Source: Rhizophagus irregularis (Eukaryota; Glomeromycota; Glomeromycetes; Glomerales; Glomeraceae). Taken from it: DNA of 64,000 bases. The translations under genes and the position numbers were made by a program. This document shows, piece after piece, positions 1,225 to 54,110 of the stretch. The stretch spans positions 3,376,501-3,440,500 of the forward strand of contig NC_089442.1 of NCBI RefSeq assembly GCF_026210795.1, written 5' to 3'. Below the pieces are notes generated by a model. The model was not told where the DNA came from and searched no databases. It worked only from the letters and a program-made list of their open reading frames with translations. How positions within the stretch are numbered: position 1 is the stretch's first letter; the number at the start of each line of letters is the position of its first letter.

Positions 1225-4200
1225 ATGGCTTACAGTAATGATAAAGGTAAAAAGCATGTAGCATAAATACTACTTAATACAAACTAGAATTATTCTAAAA
1301 TTTTTAAACAAATTGCAATAAGTTTCAAGTACTAGCATTAAGAAATATGAAGGTAATTTTAATATACTAAACAAGTTGAAATTAAAATTTTGTTTTAAAA
1401 ATGCTATCTATTATTTATACCTTACACATAATTTAAACTAATTATATTATACAAATGTTATATTAAATAATTTAGCTCGTAAGTTAATAGGTTACCTCAA
1501 TAATTGAATTTAATGAAATTACTTATTTTCGGTATATTCCATATAACTAAATAATAATTCATTTAATGATTAATAATACTATAGTCTGTAAGTTATCAGT
1601 TATTTCATTACTTTATTTATTTTACATAATATTAAAATAATTAAAATCATCTCTGTTTAAATAACTTATTTATAATTAATTATATTTACAGATGGTAAGT
1701 TACAATGCTTATAAAAATTATATTTGTTTGTTTTTGATGTTTTGTATAACTCAACTAATTATATTCTTTATTCAAATAACTAGATTGTAAGTGATGTATT
1801 TAATTTACAGTAAATACTTTATTATATTTATATTTAACTAATTAATAATTAATAATACTGCAGGGTGTAAGTTATGTGCTATCTATATTTCTACTATTTA
1901 TATAATTTAAGCTAACTAAACTAGATTATTTTGTAATTTCTTTAGTTAGTAAGTTATAAGTTATTTATTTAATTCTATTATTACATATTTATATAACCAT
2001 ATATATAACATTTAAACTAACTAAATTCTTTATTTAAAAAAATTTTTGTAATTTATTTTAGATTGTAAGTTATAATTTATATAATATTTACATATAATTT
2101 AAACGCTAAATTATTTATTTAAAAAATTATTTTGTAATTTTTTTTTTAGATGGTAAATTATAAGTTATTCATTTAACTCTATTATTAGTATATATTTATA
2201 TAATATTGACAAACTAAATTCTTTATTTAAAAAATTATTAAATAATATAGAAAGTAAGTTATTTATTTAATTCTATTACATATTTATATAAGGGTGAATT
2301 TATTCCTCACCCCGGGTGAGATTTAATATTCTTCACCCCTAAAAATTTTTTTATTTTTTGTTATGTATTTATATGCGTTTTATAATATATTATATATATA
2401 AAAAAAAATAAAGTTATATTTATTGTATGCCAAATATATACATATCGTTGATCAATCTTTATTGTTTGATTTCGCCAAATAAACGTAACAATTGAATTGT
2501 ATCGCACTACTACTAAACAAAATACAAAATAATCTTCGCTATAAACATGTGATTATGTAAAGTTCATTATTGTTTTGAACAAGTATTACGATAATGACCG
2601 TTTTCTCCACATAAACCACACTTACGACCTTTATCACCAGAAATTGCTTGTTCACTCCCATTTTTGACTTTATTTGAACCTGATTTTTCAAAAGATGATT
2701 TTAACCGCTTCGTTGCGGGTCTACCCTTTGGTTGATGCTTTAACGAATCCATTATTTGATTAGAATCAACCAATACTCCCCTTGTATTATGAAAAACTCG
2801 ATTATCATTTGCAATCATTTTTCTTCTTGCTAAATCTTCTTGTTGTCTAATTGATTCCGCTTGAATTAATTGAGCTTCCCTTCTTTTGTTATATTCTCTT
2901 ATAAACTGAATTAGTTCTTCATCATCATCTTGAATCGCAAATTGAATTGCCTTTTTGGCTTCACCCATTAAAGTACCAAATTTCAATTGTTTTTGTGATA
3001 TTTGCCTGGAATAGCTCTCTGAAAGATCATTTACAGTATATTTTCGCGTAAATTCTAAAGTGATTTGTGTATTATTTTGATCATTTTGGCAACTATTCAT
3101 TATTATTTCGCTAGAAGAGATATCACTTGAAGTGATATATTCATCTTTATACCAACGCTTGGGAATCAATACCAAATGAAAATATGCTTTAGGAGTTTCA
3201 ACAAACACTTTAAAAAAATGTCTGCATATAATACCATGCGTTATAAGCATGAAACAAGTGCATAAATATTCTCCGGTATTAAGCAAAATCACATGTTGAT
3301 AACACTTCGGAAAATTATACCGAGAGACCTTCCAAATTTCTAAAATATCGTCTGAGTTAACCATTGAAATCAAGGATTTTAAGTCAAGTTCCCGATCCTC
3401 ATCAGCTTCAATAGGTGTTTCAATAGAATCATCTACTTCTTTATCAAAAAAAGGTTCAAATGAATCGTCATCTGATGCTGAAATTTCGGAAAATGGTACT
3501 TGATGTGTACGATAACATACAGATTGGCACATCTGCTTATAATGTGCATCATGAATTGGTTGAGTGAGATACTTTTTCATGGTAATATCAATGTTTTTAA
3601 AAAACGTTTGAATAACAAAGGGTTGTGTATACTGTAATGTTGAGGATTTCCAAATTGAATAACGATTGTTAATCAACTCAAATTCTAGCCAATTTTCAAT
3701 TGATTCTTGAACTTGTGAAAGAAAAAAACTTGACTGTACAGCCTTCTGTATCAACGCATTTTCTGATTCTACGCGTTGTGTGGATTGTGTTCCCGCTGTG
3801 AAATGCCTTGATGTAAAACACTTTACCCACGTATGTTTTCTATTTAGTAGCATTGTAGTTATATATTTTTTCCCTGCTTCATATTTTTCAACTATACCTG
3901 CAGACCGGCGTTCAAATACACTTTCACAATGAGAACGTTGGATTGCCCTAAAATCTTTGAGAAACTCTTGATAAAGAGGTGATCCTAAGCATGAACGAAG
4001 ATTTTTTGGAAGATTTTGGTAAAGATGGTATAAACATTGCATATGATGAGTTTCTGGAAATACTGTAGAAATGGCTGCAATCATGGCAGGATCGGCATCA
4101 GTAACAAATGTCAATGGAGGAATTTCACATGCTTCAAGACAACATCGAAGCAACCATTCATAAGATTCTTGTTTTTCATCTTGTATGAAGGCTTGGGCTG

Positions 4201-7200
4201 CCAACCTGCTCTTGTTATAATTATCAATTAAAATAAAGAGACTTAATGGGTAGTTATACTTGTTAGTTCGCGCAGTATTGTCATGGATAATAATGTCATA
4301 AAATTTAGACCATCTTTCACGTTGTTCTGGTGACATCCAGAAAATACCAATTAGCCGGTTACTTGTATCATCTATTAACGGCTTTACAAACCATGCAGGA
4401 TCATCTGCTTGCAATTCAAGAAGTCTCATTAATAAAGATGCTGCATCTCCTAAATTATTAAGGCCTTTTTCTTGTTTGATCTTTTGAATTGCATTTCCCA
4501 AGTCTTGGGTAAGAAATACACGATCAGGATACTTTGGTTGAAGAAGATTCCTAATTGTTCCTGCATCACATCGGCCATGCACAACATAAAATTCTATCTG
4601 TTCCATAATTTCTTCAGTAAAATTTTTGTAACAAGTGGAGAATTTTATGGTATCGGTGAGAATCTCATGATTGTGTTCGTTATTAAATAACGTTACAGTT
4701 ACTATGGGTGAATTTATTCGTCTATTAACATTCATTTGCCACATACAGCCCTGTTTTTTGGTTCCTTTACTTTTTCTTTACCTAATGTTGGCCTTAAAAG
4801 CTTCTCAGTATACCTTCCTCCTAAATCACACTTAAATACCCTTTTTCTACAAGTACCATCCGGAAATTTTTCACTTTTATGCTTAAAGACAGCAAAATTA
4901 TTCTGAAGAGCGTACTGTTCTATAAAATGTACTGCAATTTCCATGGAATGAAACCTTGTTCCATTCTCAATCTCGATTAGAGTATTAATTAACGGAAAGC
5001 CACCAACATAATCTTTAAGTTCGGCACCTAATACACTTTTAACAACATATTCCTCACTATTATCATCATGATTGGTGGGTTCTGTAAAAGGTGAAACCTC
5101 ATATAACATGATTAACCAAGCACAAAAAGCAAAGAACATGCAAGAGCAAATACTATTACGGTGCGTATTATGTAGCATGCATGTGAAAAACGCGTGACTG
5201 TGGCTTATAATTTATACTGTTTATTTTATAATACAAACGCGTAGGTTCCAATTAGGGATGGCAACGGTCGGTCATGGTCGGTCATCGGTCGGTCATAACC
5301 GGTCAAGAACCTTTGACCGACCGACCGACCGTTTGACCGACAGTTTGACCGATCATTTTTTTTTATATTTTCGCAGTGTTTTTATTAAGGCAATTGAAAA
5401 AACGTGCGAAAACGTTTATTTTTTATTAAATTATTAATAAAAAAACGTTTTCGCAACGTTTCTATTAAAATAATTAAAAAACGTTGCGAAAACGTTTTAT
5501 TTTAATTATATTATTAATAAAAACGTTTTCGCAACGTTTTTTGTTAAAATAATTAAAAACGGTTGCGAAAAACATTTTTTTTTAATTAAATTATTAATAA
5601 AAAACGTTTTCGCGACGTTTTTTATTAAATTTTTCATAAAAAAATTTGGTCGGTCAAACGGTCGGTCAAACGGTCAGTCAAACGGTCGGTCAGAAGTCTT
5701 GACCGACCGATATCGGTCACGGTCATGACCGGTCATAATCGGTTAATGACCGTGACCGTTGCCATCCCTAGTTCCAATCAAATTTATTATAGTTTATTAC
5801 ACAAGCACGTGAATAAATACTAATAATATATAGGGGGTGAGTAATCACCTGGGTGAGGAATAAATTTTCTCTTTATATAATATTTACGTATAATTTAAAC
5901 TAACTAAATTCTTTATTTATAAAACTATTTAATAATATAGGGAGTAAGTTATTTATTTAATTCTTTTATTCCATATTTATATATAATTTAAACTAACTAA
6001 ATTCTTTACTTAAAAAATTATTTAATAATATAGAGAGTAAGTTGAATACATATAATATCTATATATAATTTAAACTAACTAAATTCTTTATTTAAAAAAA
6101 TTAAATAATAATATAGAGTGTAAGTTATTTATTTAATCCTATTATTACATATTTATATAATATTTACATATATTCTAAACTAACTAAACTCTTTATTTAC
6201 AAAATCATTTAATAATATAGTTCGTAAGTTATTTATTTAATTCCATTATTACATATTTATATATAATTTAAACTAATTAAATTCTCTTTATTTAAAAAAT
6301 TATTTAATAATATAGAAAGTAAGTTATTTGTTTAATTCCATTATTACATATTTATATAATAATTACATATTAAACTAACTGAATTATTTATTTAAAAAAT
6401 TATTTTGTAATTTTTTTAGTTGGTAAGTTATTAATTATTTATTTAGTTCTATTATTACATATTTTAACTAACTAAATTCTTTATTTATACTTCCTTTTAG
6501 ATTGTAAGTTATAAGTTATTCATAATATATTATTGCATATTTATATAATATTTACATATAATTTAAACTAACTAATTTCTTTATTTAAAAATTATTTTGT
6601 GATTTCTTTTAGCTGGTAGGTTATAAGTTATTCAGTTAGTTCTATTATTACATATTTATTTAATATTTACATATAAATTTAAACTATTGTTTCTTTTAGT
6701 TGGTAAGTTATAAGATATTTATTTAATTCCATTTTTACATATTTATGTAATATTCACATATAACTAATTTCTTTATTTAAAAAATTATTAATATTATAGT
6801 TCGTAAGTTATTTATTTAGCTCATTACATATTTATATAATATCGATATAATTTAAACTAACTGAATTCTTTATTTAAAAAATTATTTTATAATATAGAGG
6901 GTAAGTTCTATTATTATTACATATTTATATAATAGCTTTATATTTAAACTAACTAAATTTTTTTATTTAAAAAATCATTTAATAATATAGCTTGTAAGTT
7001 ATTTATTTAATTCTTTTATTACATATTATATAATATTTACATACTAAATTCTTAATTTAAAAAATTGTTAAATAATATAGCTCGTAAGTTATTTATTTAA
7101 TTCTTTTATTACATATTTATATGATTATATTTATACATAATTTAAACTAACTAAATTCATTATTTAAAAAATTATTTAATAATATAGGGTGTAAGTTATT

Positions 7201-9963
7201 TATTTAATTCTATTATTGTACATTTATATATTTATCGATATACTAACTAAATACTTTATTTAAAAAATTATTTGCAATTCTTTTAGACCGTAAGTTATCT
7301 ATTGTTACATATTTATATGATAATATTTATATATAATTTAAACTAACTAAATTCTTTATTTAAAAATTATTTAATAATATAGAGAGTAATTAATTTATTT
7401 AATTCATTTATTACATATTTATATAATATTTACGTTTAATTTGAACTAACTAAATTCTTTATTTAAAAAATTATTTAATAATATAGGGTGTAAGTTATTT
7501 GTTTAATTCTATTACATAATATTTACATATAATTTGTACTAACTAAATTCTTTATTTGAAAAATTATTTTATAATTCCTTTTAGTTGGTAAGTTATTAAG
7601 TTACTTATTTAATACTATTATTACATATATTATATTTAGTATATAATAATATTTATTCTTTTATTTAAAAAATTATTTAATAATATAGATCGTAAGTTAT
7701 TTTTTTAATTCTATTATTACATTTTTACATATAATTTAAACTAACTAAATTTTTTATTTAAAAAATTATTAATAATATAGATCGTAAGTTATTTTTTTAA
7801 TTCTATTATTACATACTTAAAATAACTAGATTCTTTATTTAAAAAATTACTTATAATAATATAGATGGTAAGTTATTTATTTAATTCTATTATTATATAT
7901 TTATATAACATTTACATTTTACGCATAATTTAATCTAACTAAAATATTTATTTGAAAAATTATTTAACAATATAGATAGTAAGTTATTCATTTAATTTTT
8001 ATTACATATTTACCATATTTACCGTATACTTCTGATATTAAGCACCCGAAAAAAAGCACCCGGGCCAGAATTATGAAAATTTTGGCCTACATTATGCTGT
8101 TCTCAGCCAGCATTACGGTCAAAAATTGGGGTGCTTAATTTCAGAAGTATACAGTATAATTTACGTATAATCTAAACTAAATTCTTTACTTAATAATATA
8201 GATTGTAAGTAATTTTATTATTACATATTTGTATAATATTTGCATACAATTTAAATCAATTAAATTCTTTTATTTAATAAATTATTTAATAATATAGATT
8301 GTAAGTTATTTATTTAATTTTATTATTATATATTTATATAATTTTTCTGAATAATTTAAGCTAACTAAATTCTTTATTTAAAATTATTTTAATAATAGCA
8401 TGTAAGTTATTTGTTATTTTTATTTTATATAATATTTATTTTTTAACTGAATTCTTTTATTTAAAAAATTTTTAGTTGGTAAGTTGAAAATTATAGATTA
8501 CTAAATATATTTTATATAATAACTAAGATTTATATTATATTAAATTCCTATTTTAATTATAGAGTAAGTAGTGTCATTAGTTTTAATTTAAATTTTAGTG
8601 TAAATTCCAATATATACTTTAATAGTTTAATATAATTTTTGAATTTTAATTTTTTAGATTTGGAAAAAGTGGAAATACAATTTTAGATGAATTTATTTGG
8701 GAAAAAAAATTAAAATGGATTCCTTATAATAAATTTAAAAATGTTGAATATCTTGATAAAGGAGGATTTAGTACTATATACAAAGCTATTTGGCTAAGAG
8801 ATATTGGAAATAAAGGAGGATTTAGTACTATATACAAAGCTATTGGGTTAAAAGATATTGGAAATAAAGAAGTAATTCTTAAATGTCACACTAATCTAAA
8901 TGAAAATTTAAGTGAATTTTTAAATGAAGTATGATATATTATTTATGTTTTTTTAATTTAAATTATAATTTATTTATGTTAGTATATTATTATTTTATAG
9001 TGGAAATATCATGAAAGTTGCTTAGAAACATTTGATATTATTTATTTCTATGGATTTACAAAACATCCAGATACCTTAAAATATATGGCAGTAATGGATT
9101 ATGCAAACAAAGGTAATTTAAGAGGAAATTTAACAAGAATAGTCAAAAATAATTGGATACAAAGATTATATATGTTATATGAAATTATTTCTGGACTTAA
9201 TGATATACATAAACAAAATCTTATTCATTGTGATCTTCATGATGGTAATATTTTAAATCATAATGAGAATACAGATAAAATTTATATTAGTGATTTAGGA
9301 TTATGTCAACCTGCAAAATCATTTTTAAAAAAGTATGACATTTATGGTGTTATACCATTTATGGCACCTGAAGTTTTAAGAGGCAAATCTTATACTCGAG
9401 CTAGTGATATATATAGTTTTTCTATGATTATGTGGGAATTTACGTCTGGGGTACCACCATTTAATAATAGAGCACATGATCTTCAACTTAGTTTAAGTAT
9501 TTGTAAAGGTGAACGTCCTGAAATTATTGAAAATACTCCACAATGTTACGTAGATTTGATGAAAAAATGTTGGAATGAAGATCCATTAAAAAGGCCATCA
9601 ACTGAAGTAGTGTTAGATATCATTGAAAAATGGGTTTTACTTCCTGAGGAAATGAAAATTGAAGACATCGATAAAGAATTAAAATGCAATATTATTGAAT
9701 TTATAAATGCACCAATTGGGCATAAAAATCTTGCTACTGAATCTCATCCGCAAGCATGTTATACAAGTCGATTGCTTGATTTTACTAGTAAAAACTTGAA
9801 TGAAGAAATTCTTGAAAGTGAAGATTTGGATGATTATATAATTAAAGATTTGAAGTCATTAGGTATGTAATATAGTAATATAAAAAAATTAATTTGCAAA
9901 TTATTTATGTGAAATTAATTTTATTTATTTAATTATTTAGATATTAAAACAAATAACGAATAA
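1225..9963 (+). CDS. Protein kinase gene whose N-terminus is encoded by a chain of 3-nt microexons
   Basis: Seen: the kinase domain is in two ordinary exons, 8658-8928 and 9001-9862, joined by a 72-bp intron. Motifs are GGFSTIYKA (Gly loop, present twice), VILK, HCDLHDGNIL (Cys where HRD has Arg), SDLGL (DFG variant) and YGVIPFMAPE. The exon at 8658 has no ATG in frame near its start and needs two incoming bases. My model is an ATG exon at 1225-1246 (MAYSNDK plus one base), 35 three-base exons between 1476 and 8478, a single A at 8563, then 8658. The sum is 22+105+1+271 bases, in phase at every junction, with no stop. The joined part reads ALYDWFNYERKKFQ near its start and HHDNYSFE at its end, running into FGKSGNTILDEFI. 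That matches the F..(W)..SGN..ID.FI motif usual before this fungal kinase domain. The last exon is 9941-9963 if the GTATGT donor at 9863 is used; otherwise translation stops at 9870. The kinase part is confident. The microexon part is a strong inference needing RNA evidence. Confidence 0.72.
1247..2282 (+). repeat. Tandem intron-like array, first block (9 microexon cassettes)
   Basis: Nine cassettes of the form TAG or CAG + NNN + GTAAGTT (or close variants) are spaced roughly 80-115 bp apart. The three-base cassettes are CTC 1476, TCT 1585, ATG 1692, ATT 1784, GGT 1864, TTA 1946, ATT 2062, ATG 2150 and AAA 2251. The DNA between them is related from unit to unit and carries intron signals: donor GTAAGT, a CTAAC or CTAAT-like branch sequence and a T-rich tract ending in TTTTAG or TATAG. 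The first interval (1247-1475) is longer than the others, and units may have been lost there. The block is interrupted at 2283 by a MULE transposon and resumes at 5881. Confidence 0.85.
2567..5178 (-). pseudogene. MULE transposase (FAR1-like, DDE, SWIM, zinc knuckle), frameshifted
   Basis: The protein lies in two overlapping frames: 4732-5178 (148 aa) and 2567-4744 (725 aa). The first holds most of a FAR1-type DNA-binding domain (ending near DGTCRKRVFKC). The second begins with its last part (MWQMNVN, then NEHNHEI). It then has a MULE transposase domain around residues 145-260 (IHDNTARTNKY, FVTDADPAM, MQCLYHLYQNL), a SWIM finger near residues 495-515 (CTCF...HGIICRHFF) and a C-terminal CCHC knuckle (CGLCGENGHYRNTC). 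The two frames should be one protein. The break falls at an A-run near 4755-4760, where one base more or less restores continuity, so it could be a real mutation or an assembly error. Apart from this break the protein looks full length. Confidence 0.88.
5253..5770. mobile_element. hAT-type MITE nested in the MULE
   Basis: The 8-bp target duplication gttccaat (5245-5252 and 5771-5778) flanks a 518-bp element. Its ends are perfect inverted repeats beginning TAGGGATGGCAACGGTC. Both subterminal regions are dense in GGTCGGTC/GACCGACC repeats. The centre has repeated pairs of the type AACGTTTTCGCAACGTT. No coding frame is present. An 8-bp duplication and TAG-type ends fit a non-autonomous hAT element. 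Confidence 0.9.
5881..8657 (+). repeat. Tandem intron-like array, second block (26 triplet cassettes and a 1-nt cassette)
   Basis: The unit is about 95 bp: GTAAGTTATTTATTTAATTC, then a TTACATATTTATAT segment, then AAACTAACTAAATTC, then an AT tract ending AATATAG. Cassettes by start: GGA 5941, AGA 6034, AGT 6117, TTC 6221, AAA 6316, TTG 6420, ATT 6501, CTG 6613, TTG 6700, TTC 6800, AGG 6898, CTT 6991, CTC 7081, GGT 7188, ACC 7287, AGA 7383, GGT 7487, TTG 7585, ATC 7689, ATC 7781, ATG 7865, ATA 7976, ATT 8202, ATT 8298, CAT 8399, TTG 8476. A single A at 8563 follows, then a 94-bp unit ending at the kinase exon. Counting all 35 triplets, 35 of 105 bases are G or C, clearly more than in the surrounding unit sequence. 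Every cassette is exactly three bases although its sequence varies freely. Confidence 0.88.
8024..8152. mobile_element. Small MITE inside an array intron
   Basis: Inverted repeats of about 24 bp (GTATACTTCTGATATTAAGC and its complement near 8127-8152, one mismatch) bound a 129-bp insert. It lies in the intron between the ATA cassette (7976) and the ATT cassette (8202). The TA at each end would fit a Tc1/mariner-type TA duplication, but the exact boundary is ambiguous because GTATAC is itself palindromic. Neighbouring array units lack the insert. Confidence 0.75.
8761..8868 (+). repeat. 54-bp tandem duplication of the kinase glycine loop
   Basis: The 54 bases at 8761-8814 recur at 8815-8868 with a few substitutions. 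The result is two copies of GGFSTIYKAI..(L)..DIGNK in frame. Only one Gly loop can serve the active site, so the protein has an 18-residue insertion in its N-lobe. Confidence 0.9.
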
Positions 9964-52659: not shown

Positions 52660-54110
52660 AAAAATTGTAAAAAAAACGTTTCAGCGTTTTTTCATATAAT
52701 ATTATTAAAAAAATGCCAAAAACTTTTTTTTTTGCATTACTATTAAGAAAAAAACGTTTTGGCATTTTTCCATATAAAATTATAAAAAAATAACACAAAA
52801 ACGTTTTTTCTTCATTTTTTATTTTTTTAACAAAAAATGTCAAGACTGACGTTTTTAATTAAAAAAAACCAATATTTTTTTGATTTTTAATCACAAAAAT
52901 GTCAAGTCTGACGTTTTTAATTAAAAAAATCATTTTTTTTTGATTTTTTAATTACAAAAACGTCAAGTCTGACATTTTTAATTAAAAAAAAACCAATATT
53001 TTTTTAATTTTTATTTTTTAATCACAAAAATGTCAAGTCTGACGTTTTTTAATTAAAAAAATCATTTTTTTGATTTTTTAATAACAAAAACGTCAAGTCT
53101 GATGTTTTTAATCAAAAAAATCATTTTTTTTGATTTTTTAATTACAATAACGTCAAGTCTAACGTTTTTAATCAAAAAAATCATTTTTTTTTGATTTTTT
53201 AATTACAAAAACATCAAGTCTGACATTTTTAATCAAAAAAATCATTTTTTTTGATTTTTTAATTACAAAAACGTCAAGTCCGACGTTTTTAATTAAAAAA
53301 AAACAATATTTTTTTGATTTTTAATTACAAAATGCCAACTGCCAAGTCTGACGTTTTTAATTAAAAAATCAATATTTTTTTGATTTTTAATCACAAAAAC
53401 ATCAAGTCTGACGTTTTTAATAAAAAAATCATTTTTTTGATTTTTTAATTACAAAAACGTCAAGTCTGACGTTTTTAACTAAAAAAATCAATTTTTTTGA
53501 TTTTTAATTACAAAATTGTCAAATCTAACGTAGAAAATAATTTTTTGAATCATAAAAATATCAAATCTGACGTTTTTAATTAAAAAATCATTTTTTTTTA
53601 TTTTTAATCACAAAAATGTCATGTCTGACGTTTTTAACTAAAAAAATCATTTTTTTTTGATTTTTTAATTACAAAAACGTCAAGTCTGACGTTTTTTAAC
53701 TAAAAAAGTCATTTTTTTGATTTTTTAATTACAAAAACGTCAAGTCTGACGTTTTTTAACTAAAAAAGTCATTTTTTTGATTTTTTAATTACAAAAACGT
53801 CAAATCTGACATTTTTAATTAAAAAAATCATTTTTTTTATTTTTAATCACAAAAATGTCATGTCTGACGTTTTTATAACTAAAAAAGTCATTTTTTTTGA
53901 TTTTTTAATTACAAAAACATCAAGCCTGACGTTTTTTAAATGAAAAAGTCATTTTTTTTTGATTTTTTAATTACAAAAACGTCAAGCCTGACGTTTTTTA
54001 ACTAAAAAAGTCATTTTTTTGTTTTTTTAATTACAAAAACGTCAAGTCTGACGTTTTTAATAAAAAAATCAATTTTTTTTATATTTAATTATAAAAACGT
54101 TTGATGACCC
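52660..54110. repeat. Satellite of about 60 bp with a palindromic core
   Basis: About 21 copies of a unit with core ACGTCAAGTCTGACGTTTTT followed by AATTAAAAAAATCATTTTTT and TGATTTTTTAATTAC run from about 52830. A related, looser AACGTTTTGGCATTTTT section precedes them. The core is an inverted repeat (CGTCA..TGACG), and the A- and T-tracts also pair, so each unit can fold as a hairpin. No gene is present. Confidence 0.85.

Follow-up and report, generated by a model that had tools for sequence, protein, structure and literature searches.

Within the window, which is the whole 64-kb stretch of contig 14 of the Rhizophagus genome that was analysed, we read positions 1225 to 9963 as a single gene whose closing short exon lies at 9941-9963 (Table 1). 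Between its opening exons and a protein kinase domain, the predicted gene runs through a series of units, each consisting of an acceptor AG, exactly 3 nt and a donor of the GTAAGT type. The original prediction had counted 35 such units before the kinase gene, with a G+C content in the triplets of 35/105; on recounting, all 35 units were present and the G+C content was the same. Listing the pattern across the window gave 37 matches, of which those at 5806 and 5834 were excluded as lying inside the end of an inserted transposon. The exact motif TAGNNNGTAAGT was found 30 times in the 64-kb window, always on the + strand and between 1473 and 8484, compared with an expectation of 0.34 from dinucleotide shuffles and a maximum of 2 in any single shuffle.

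Table 1. Predicted exons and inserted element of the array-kinase gene, in window coordinates.
Feature	Position	Strand	Remarks
Exon 1 (ATG)	1225..1246	+	22 nt; MAYSNDK plus one base
Exon 2	1323..1352	+	30 nt, in frame; VSSTSIKKYE
Array block 1	1476..2253	+	9 three-nt exons: CTC TCT ATG ATT GGT TTA ATT ATG AAA; triplet starts 1476, 1585, 1692, 1784, 1864, 1946, 2062, 2150, 2251
MULE DNA transposon	2292..5871	-	within one array intron (gap between units 2251 and 5941)
Array block 2	5941..8478	+	26 three-nt exons, GGA at 5941 first, TTG at 8476 last; triplet starts 10-22: 5941, 6034, 6117, 6221, 6316, 6420, 6501, 6613, 6700, 6800, 6898, 6991, 7081; triplet starts 23-35: 7188, 7287, 7383, 7487, 7585, 7689, 7781, 7865, 7976, 8202, 8298, 8399, 8476
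One-nucleotide exon A	8563..8563	+	TATAG-A-GTAAGT
First kinase exon	8658..8928	+	271 nt; FGKSGNTILDEFI...
Second kinase exon (catalytic part)	9001..9862	+	862 nt
Last exon	9941..9963	+	D-IKTNNE, stop; agrees with the C-terminus of P0021

The earlier exon list stood as regards the triplets, the 1-nt A exon and the kinase exon, but had overlooked the in-frame exon at 1323-1352. In place and phase, this exon matches exon 2 of locus L040 (120 nt) and exon 2 of L012 (75 nt, with its acceptor picked by eye). A first exon resembling that of the window gene was found upstream of the arrays read at L010, L011, L012 and L051. Translation of the join gave one open frame running into FGKSGNTILDEFI, as had been claimed. 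Without the last exon, the joined product is 432 residues long and matched PF07714 (E 2.9e-36; 125.5 bits vs the Pfam cut-off of 23.1), and the N-terminal segment encoded by the array had zero Pfam matches in this profile search. Kinase motifs could be recognised by eye (the lysine in VILKC, HCDLHDGN and a motif of the DLG type), and we infer that the product is an active kinase. In the window gene, the more constant ends of the array-encoded segment read ALYDWF.. and ..SFEFGKSGN, the latter leading into the kinase.

Two of the array introns carry insertions. The MULE is flanked by a 9-bp target duplication, TTTATATAA, at 2283-2291 and 5872-5880, and contains a transposase ORF (2567-4744, minus strand; PF10551, E 6.1e-22). 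Joining the triplets on either side of the MULE keeps the frame. A palindrome-like short insertion is present in the second of these introns, at about 8030-8157 of the window, and would explain the 226-nt distance between the units at 7976 and 8202.

We surveyed the whole genome (146,748,485 bases in 32 contigs) for further TAG-NNN-GTAAGT arrays, a search that the original prediction had put forward. Counting both strands, there were 6,435 exact TAG-N3-GTAAGT sites, compared with 881 sites for N4 and 877 for N6, which rules out that a 4-nt or 6-nt spacing is equally common. A reversed-pattern control in the same genome gave 1,477 sites for N3, 2,227 for N4 and 1,479 for N6. Because this control is itself uneven, the excess of N3 sites, about 5,500 exact sites if the N4 and N6 counts are taken as level, is only approximate. 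The exact pattern was present in 541 of the 633 units of the arrays that we read, and arrays that are whole or nearly whole held 17 to 44 units, the shortest read being that of L040 with only 11. From the site excess, the share of exact units and the number of units per array, we estimate that the genome holds roughly 200 arrays.

All four dense clusters on contig 1 up to 2.63 Mb (L009-L012) had a kinase gene behind them, and at L013 and L014, with one or two pattern matches each, no array was present on inspection. Conversely, a genome search with the kinase exon, in which 150 of 3,861 candidates were scored, gave at least 151 matches, and an array lay upstream of every one of the best 30 (L015-L044). 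Arrays were also read at L045 with L051, at L048 with L052, and at L054. The array, which had been regarded as a peculiarity of a single gene, thus belongs to a large family.

The sample used for the analyses below comprised 38 sequence sets with 633 units, representing 37 arrays, since L053 and L019 are parts of one array with one unit in common; for L015-L044, each set covers the final 1.5 kb of the locus and holds 9 to 15 units. Units were accepted with at least 5/6 matches in the donor, T or C at position -3 and a spacing of >40 nt, rules by which units are undercounted. Exons of 3 nt were present in all 38 sets, and some of the other arrays showed gaps without any recognisable unit. Near the end of the L054 array, at about 1245, a 6-nt exon (ATTCTT) stands where a 3-nt exon was expected; its length is still a multiple of three.

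The donor was GTAAGT in 565 of the 633 units, and the acceptor was TAG in 609 and CAG in 24, figures that are partly built in by unit selection. Among introns of 50-125 nt, the median length of the array introns was 96 nt (5-95% range 77-112). The branch-point motif CTAAH was found in 87% of 569 introns vs 40% in mononucleotide shuffles, with median positions 36-40 nt before the 3' site. In having a consensus donor and acceptor and a branch-point motif at a fixed distance, the array introns conform to GT-AG introns. The 1-nt A exon ahead of the kinase exon was present at all 30 loci (L015-L044), at 27 of them by the strict pattern; the variants were GTGAGT in L022, an AAG acceptor in L039 and GTAAGC in L041.

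Triplets starting with GT, where a donor would directly follow the acceptor, numbered 3 vs 94 predicted by composition, and triplets ending in AG numbered 4 vs 15.8. We treat this avoidance as secondary support, because starts with TG (7 vs 46.7 expected) and TA (1 vs 13.9) are rare too. Splicing does not explain all of the avoidance, and it offers an obvious reason for the GT starts alone.

Exons 1 and 2 deliver one base of an incomplete codon to the array (phase 1), so that each junction codon consists of the last base of one triplet and the first two bases of the next. We examined 569 pairs of neighbouring triplets lying no more than 130 nt apart, and compared them with 1000 shufflings of the triplets within each array. 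A single phase-1 stop was observed at adjacent junctions, vs 21.3±3.5 after shuffling and 11 in the lowest of the 1000 shuffles. This sole stop, in L034 at about 326, is formed by CGT followed by AAC at a normal spacing of 91 nt. No depletion was seen at lag 2 (21/508 vs 18.9 shuffled), lag 3 (17/454 vs 16.9) or lag 4 (20/403 vs 15.1), nor in phase 2 between adjacent triplets (74 stops vs 70.8). Stops are therefore purged solely between neighbours in phase 1, which argues that selection sees adjacent triplets joined in that frame. The dependence on adjacency further suggests that full inclusion of the triplets is the isoform under selection and would be the main one, and most skips would be tolerated. 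Phase-0 stops were seen in 3 of 531 triplets (in L027, L028 and L044) where composition predicts 12.9, a depletion that is not specific to stops, because all TAN and TGN triplets are rare. We prefer phase 1 as the likely coding frame, given the stop statistics, the phase in which exons 1 and 2 end and the close fit of the 1-nt exon's donor to the consensus.

The triplets are hypervariable. Base composition is nearly even at their last position and moderately even at the first, within flanks that are mostly >85% A+T; the middle base is T or G in about 91% of triplets across all arrays read, and the wobble base, in phase 1, is unusually rich in T and G. In comparisons of unit pairs with no more than 4 differences in 70 flank bases, which select on flank similarity, use non-independent pairs and involve introns that may be constrained, the three triplet bases differed in 38%, 26% and 56% of 810 pairs between arrays, vs 3.7% per flank base, and in 5.0%, 5.7% and 9.2% of 282 pairs within arrays, vs 1.45%, a weaker contrast. 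When pairs, likewise non-independent, were picked on the distant flank alone, the rate of difference in triplets was 2.1 to 2.75 times that of nearby intron bases; at the strictest setting, 447 of 503 array pairs showed the excess. Where the downstream flank served for picking the pairs, differences in the near flank upstream amounted to 30-46%, on average still below the triplets. Between arrays, with codons read in phase 1, positions 1 and 2 were the most variable and the wobble base the least, a pattern opposite to that of ordinary coding sequence; among pairs within arrays, the wobble base was not the least variable.

Closely related kinases share few of their triplets. Across 45 pairs of loci with a kinase-exon identity of 93% or more, a mean of 2.8 of the last 11 triplets agreed, and L040 and L041, whose kinase exons are 97.7% identical, had 3 of 11 in common. 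The 3' end of the array is usually fixed, with TTG in 30/30 loci and CTT TTG in 22/30, and several arrays start alike (CTC .. ATG ATT GGT TTR), indicating a variable middle between more constant ends. Amino-acid entropy was 4.05 bits for the phase-1 segment and 3.79 for the kinase exon, and the segment is richer in W, F, Y, R, H and D than the kinase exon.

We then compared these readings with public gene models. P0021 (DAOM 181602=DAOM 197198) starts within the second kinase exon and shares 99.2% identity with the window gene over 261 residues; we take it to be the same gene. P0016 translates the L051 array in phase 0, leaves out two of its triplets and has a last exon of 5 nt. Aligned with the phase-0 translation of L051 over 33 columns, it shows 29 identities, 2 mismatches and 2 gap columns. 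The source contig of P0016 is 344,056 bases long, so some pipeline called 3-nt exons in a different assembly, and an assembly error is correspondingly less likely. In P0003, P0041 and P0122, as we decode them, the array is bypassed by way of a 7-nt exon. A search with residues 1-65 of the L040 product matched five database proteins, in which the array is skipped, other sequence is retained or exon 2 is fused to another gene. The phase-1 segment of the window gene was absent from the N-termini with a WIPY-like motif among the best 120 of 1,106 database matches, and no phase-1 gene model was found among the database proteins searched. Taken together, the models examined suggest that, in this large gene family, the variable part is missing from the database annotation of the fungus or wrongly read there.

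Two further proteins were considered and rejected. P0107, from another isolate, was tried as a diverged allele of the L053/L019 array, but its alignment score of 55 falls inside the shuffled range (mean 47.7, maximum 83); used as a database query, its residues 1-95 matched nothing but P0107 itself. P0110 was tried as a phase-1 model, and L054, its locus in its own genome, does not encode its N-terminus in the part read. The annotated protein P0121 joins the acidic exon 2 of the array-kinase family to a DUF8211 protein.

The best explanation for these observations, to which we assign a probability of about 0.85, is that serial 3-nt microexons are spliced together and encode a hypervariable N-terminal segment of a protein kinase. 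The original prediction had proposed such a chain for the window gene, and it draws support from the N3 spacing across the genome, the avoidance of stops between phase-1 neighbours, the 87% of introns with a branch-point motif, and the A exon at 30/30 loci. Counting against it are the public models that omit the array or read it in another phase, the phase-1 stop in L034, the T/G bias of the wobble base, the rarity of TGN and TAN triplets, the gaps without a recognisable unit in other arrays, the 54-bp duplication in the window gene and the unevenness of the reversed-pattern control. The same 3-nt exons could be spliced in phase 0, with one triplet per residue and a 5-nt last exon, AGTAA, that yields ..LSKFGKSGN as in P0016. 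Besides the 29/33 identical columns of that model, several database models that start MSKFGKSGN, or nearly so, agree with this frame. We nevertheless consider it improbable, because neighbouring triplets avoid stops in phase 1 only, the array is entered in phase 1 from exons 1 and 2, three triplets are themselves phase-0 stops, and a 5-nt exon needs weaker donors next to a near-perfect GTAAGT. Splicing could also be combinatorial, variable subsets of triplets giving many N-termini per gene and no single full-inclusion mRNA being of importance. The frame survives any subset, about 96% of single skips stay open as judged from the lag-2 stops, and P0016 is without two triplets of its array, which would count here if that model is read-based. 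However, the purging of stops between direct neighbours only indicates that selection sees full, in-order inclusion, and there is little chance that subsets are the principal output.

We find it hardest of all to believe that the array is a satellite within one long 5' intron or UTR, with splice-like motifs that are mere repeats and a kinase that starts downstream. Tandem repeats are able to diverge in such a manner, and the models P0021 and P0035 do start within the kinase part, but neighbouring units of a satellite are not expected to avoid stops in a frame dictated by exons that lie kilobases from them, and this reading would leave unexplained both the fixed 3-nt length and why triplets change faster than their flanks.

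A chain of spliced microexons would operate as follows. In the window gene, the 35 exons of 3 nt would be set apart by spliceosomal introns that are homologous to each other and measure about 95 nt, except for the one enlarged by the MULE. Every short intron would be removed by the ordinary spliceosome and the triplets would normally all be kept, in order, each repeat unit of DNA contributing one codon's worth of mRNA, and the final 1-nt exon would put the frame right for the kinase exon. The predicted product opens with a short stretch that is conserved, continues with a hypervariable segment, which in the window gene spans about 35 residues, and enters the kinase through a conserved motif (here SFEFGKSGN). 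Since every unit is 3 nt, units could be gained, lost, swapped or mutated without loss of frame, and the array would act as a frame-safe generator of N-terminal diversity over an estimated 200 or so paralogues. The footprints of splicing factors make simultaneous binding to introns 3 bases apart hardly possible, which implies that the introns would be removed sequentially, possibly in the 5'-to-3' order that the original prediction put forward. A strong donor sequence in the intron would have to compensate for the free triplet on its exon side, and the near-invariant GTAAGT fits this. Units within an array can be near-identical, so tandem duplication is the probable way in which arrays gain units, each duplication adding one codon with the frame intact.

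Given the hypervariability and the size of the family, our guess is that the variable segment serves recognition or targeting. More tentatively, and with the odds against it, the arrays may form a codon-by-codon diversity generator for some 200 (again an estimate) recognition or targeting kinases, in which turnover of units rewrites the segment and partial skipping adds variants. This would be an undescribed type of repertoire, which arbuscular mycorrhizal fungi might use to recognise partners or to tell self from non-self.

Introner-like families consist of introns that are mutually homologous and spread over many unrelated genes. Homologous introns are common to introners and arrays (the 282 within-array and 810 between-array close unit pairs here), but introners reside in many unrelated genes, whereas the arrays read here precede one kinase family (4/4 clusters in the first 2.6 Mb of contig 1, and 30/30 kinase loci). 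In schistosome MEGs, exon length varies. These genes are the nearest known system: their coding region is described as mostly very small symmetrical exons, the splicing of which leads to proteins a few residues apart (PMC4350168), and a series of tiny symmetrical exons is likewise found in the arrays. The products of schistosome MEGs are secreted or gland-associated, whereas here 3-nt exons within homologous tandem repeats lead into a kinase. The coding region of the window gene is not mostly microexons, the kinase exons being 271 and 862 nt long.

Splicing has been described for a 3 bp exon of Drosophila homothorax and for 1 nt exons of plant APC11 and VPS55, the last with a conserved GTRAGT donor (PMC7392893; PMC4674806; PMC8831610). 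Those exons are isolated or paired, whereas here there are dozens in succession in many paralogous genes. Xlr2 of Trichoderma contains a fungal microexon, and the abstract of that report states that functional microexons were previously undescribed in filamentous fungi (PMC11121469); the Xlr2 microexon is one exon acting as a switch, in contrast to an array. With the expanded kinase family of Rhizophagus (PF07714/PF00069), the genes described here share a similar kinase domain and entry motif, but in the models of that family that we examined the array segment is absent or differently framed. In the available sections of the genome paper (PMC10234402) and of the work on SP7-like effectors (PMC11333574), microexons are not mentioned, and we found no description of chains of single-codon exons in the open-licence PMC literature, supplements being outside the scope of the search. 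The components are known, and a tandem repeat that gives one codon per repeat together with a hypervariable region is a variant of nothing that we could find. Single exons of 3 nt or 1 nt are splicing curiosities; here dozens appear to stand in a row, in an estimated 200 or so genes, with stops purged across junctions about 95 nt apart. This opens questions as to how the spliceosome handles introns 3 bases apart, whether it works through such chains in order, and how a hypervariable segment of a protein can change codon by codon while the frame is protected. If RNA confirms the splicing, the arrays would represent a new route to building and varying proteins.

Some observations concern the state of individual genes and the rest of the window. 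The kinase exon at 8658-8928 contains a 54-bp in-frame tandem duplication, at about 8756-8869, in the part encoding the glycine loop, and the window gene may be impaired by it. In L011 (minus strand), the kinase exon is apparently interrupted by an insertion at about 6000-6420, and this array may belong to a dead gene. Elsewhere in the window, positions 52815-54100 are occupied by a big tandem array with a period of 60/121 bp.
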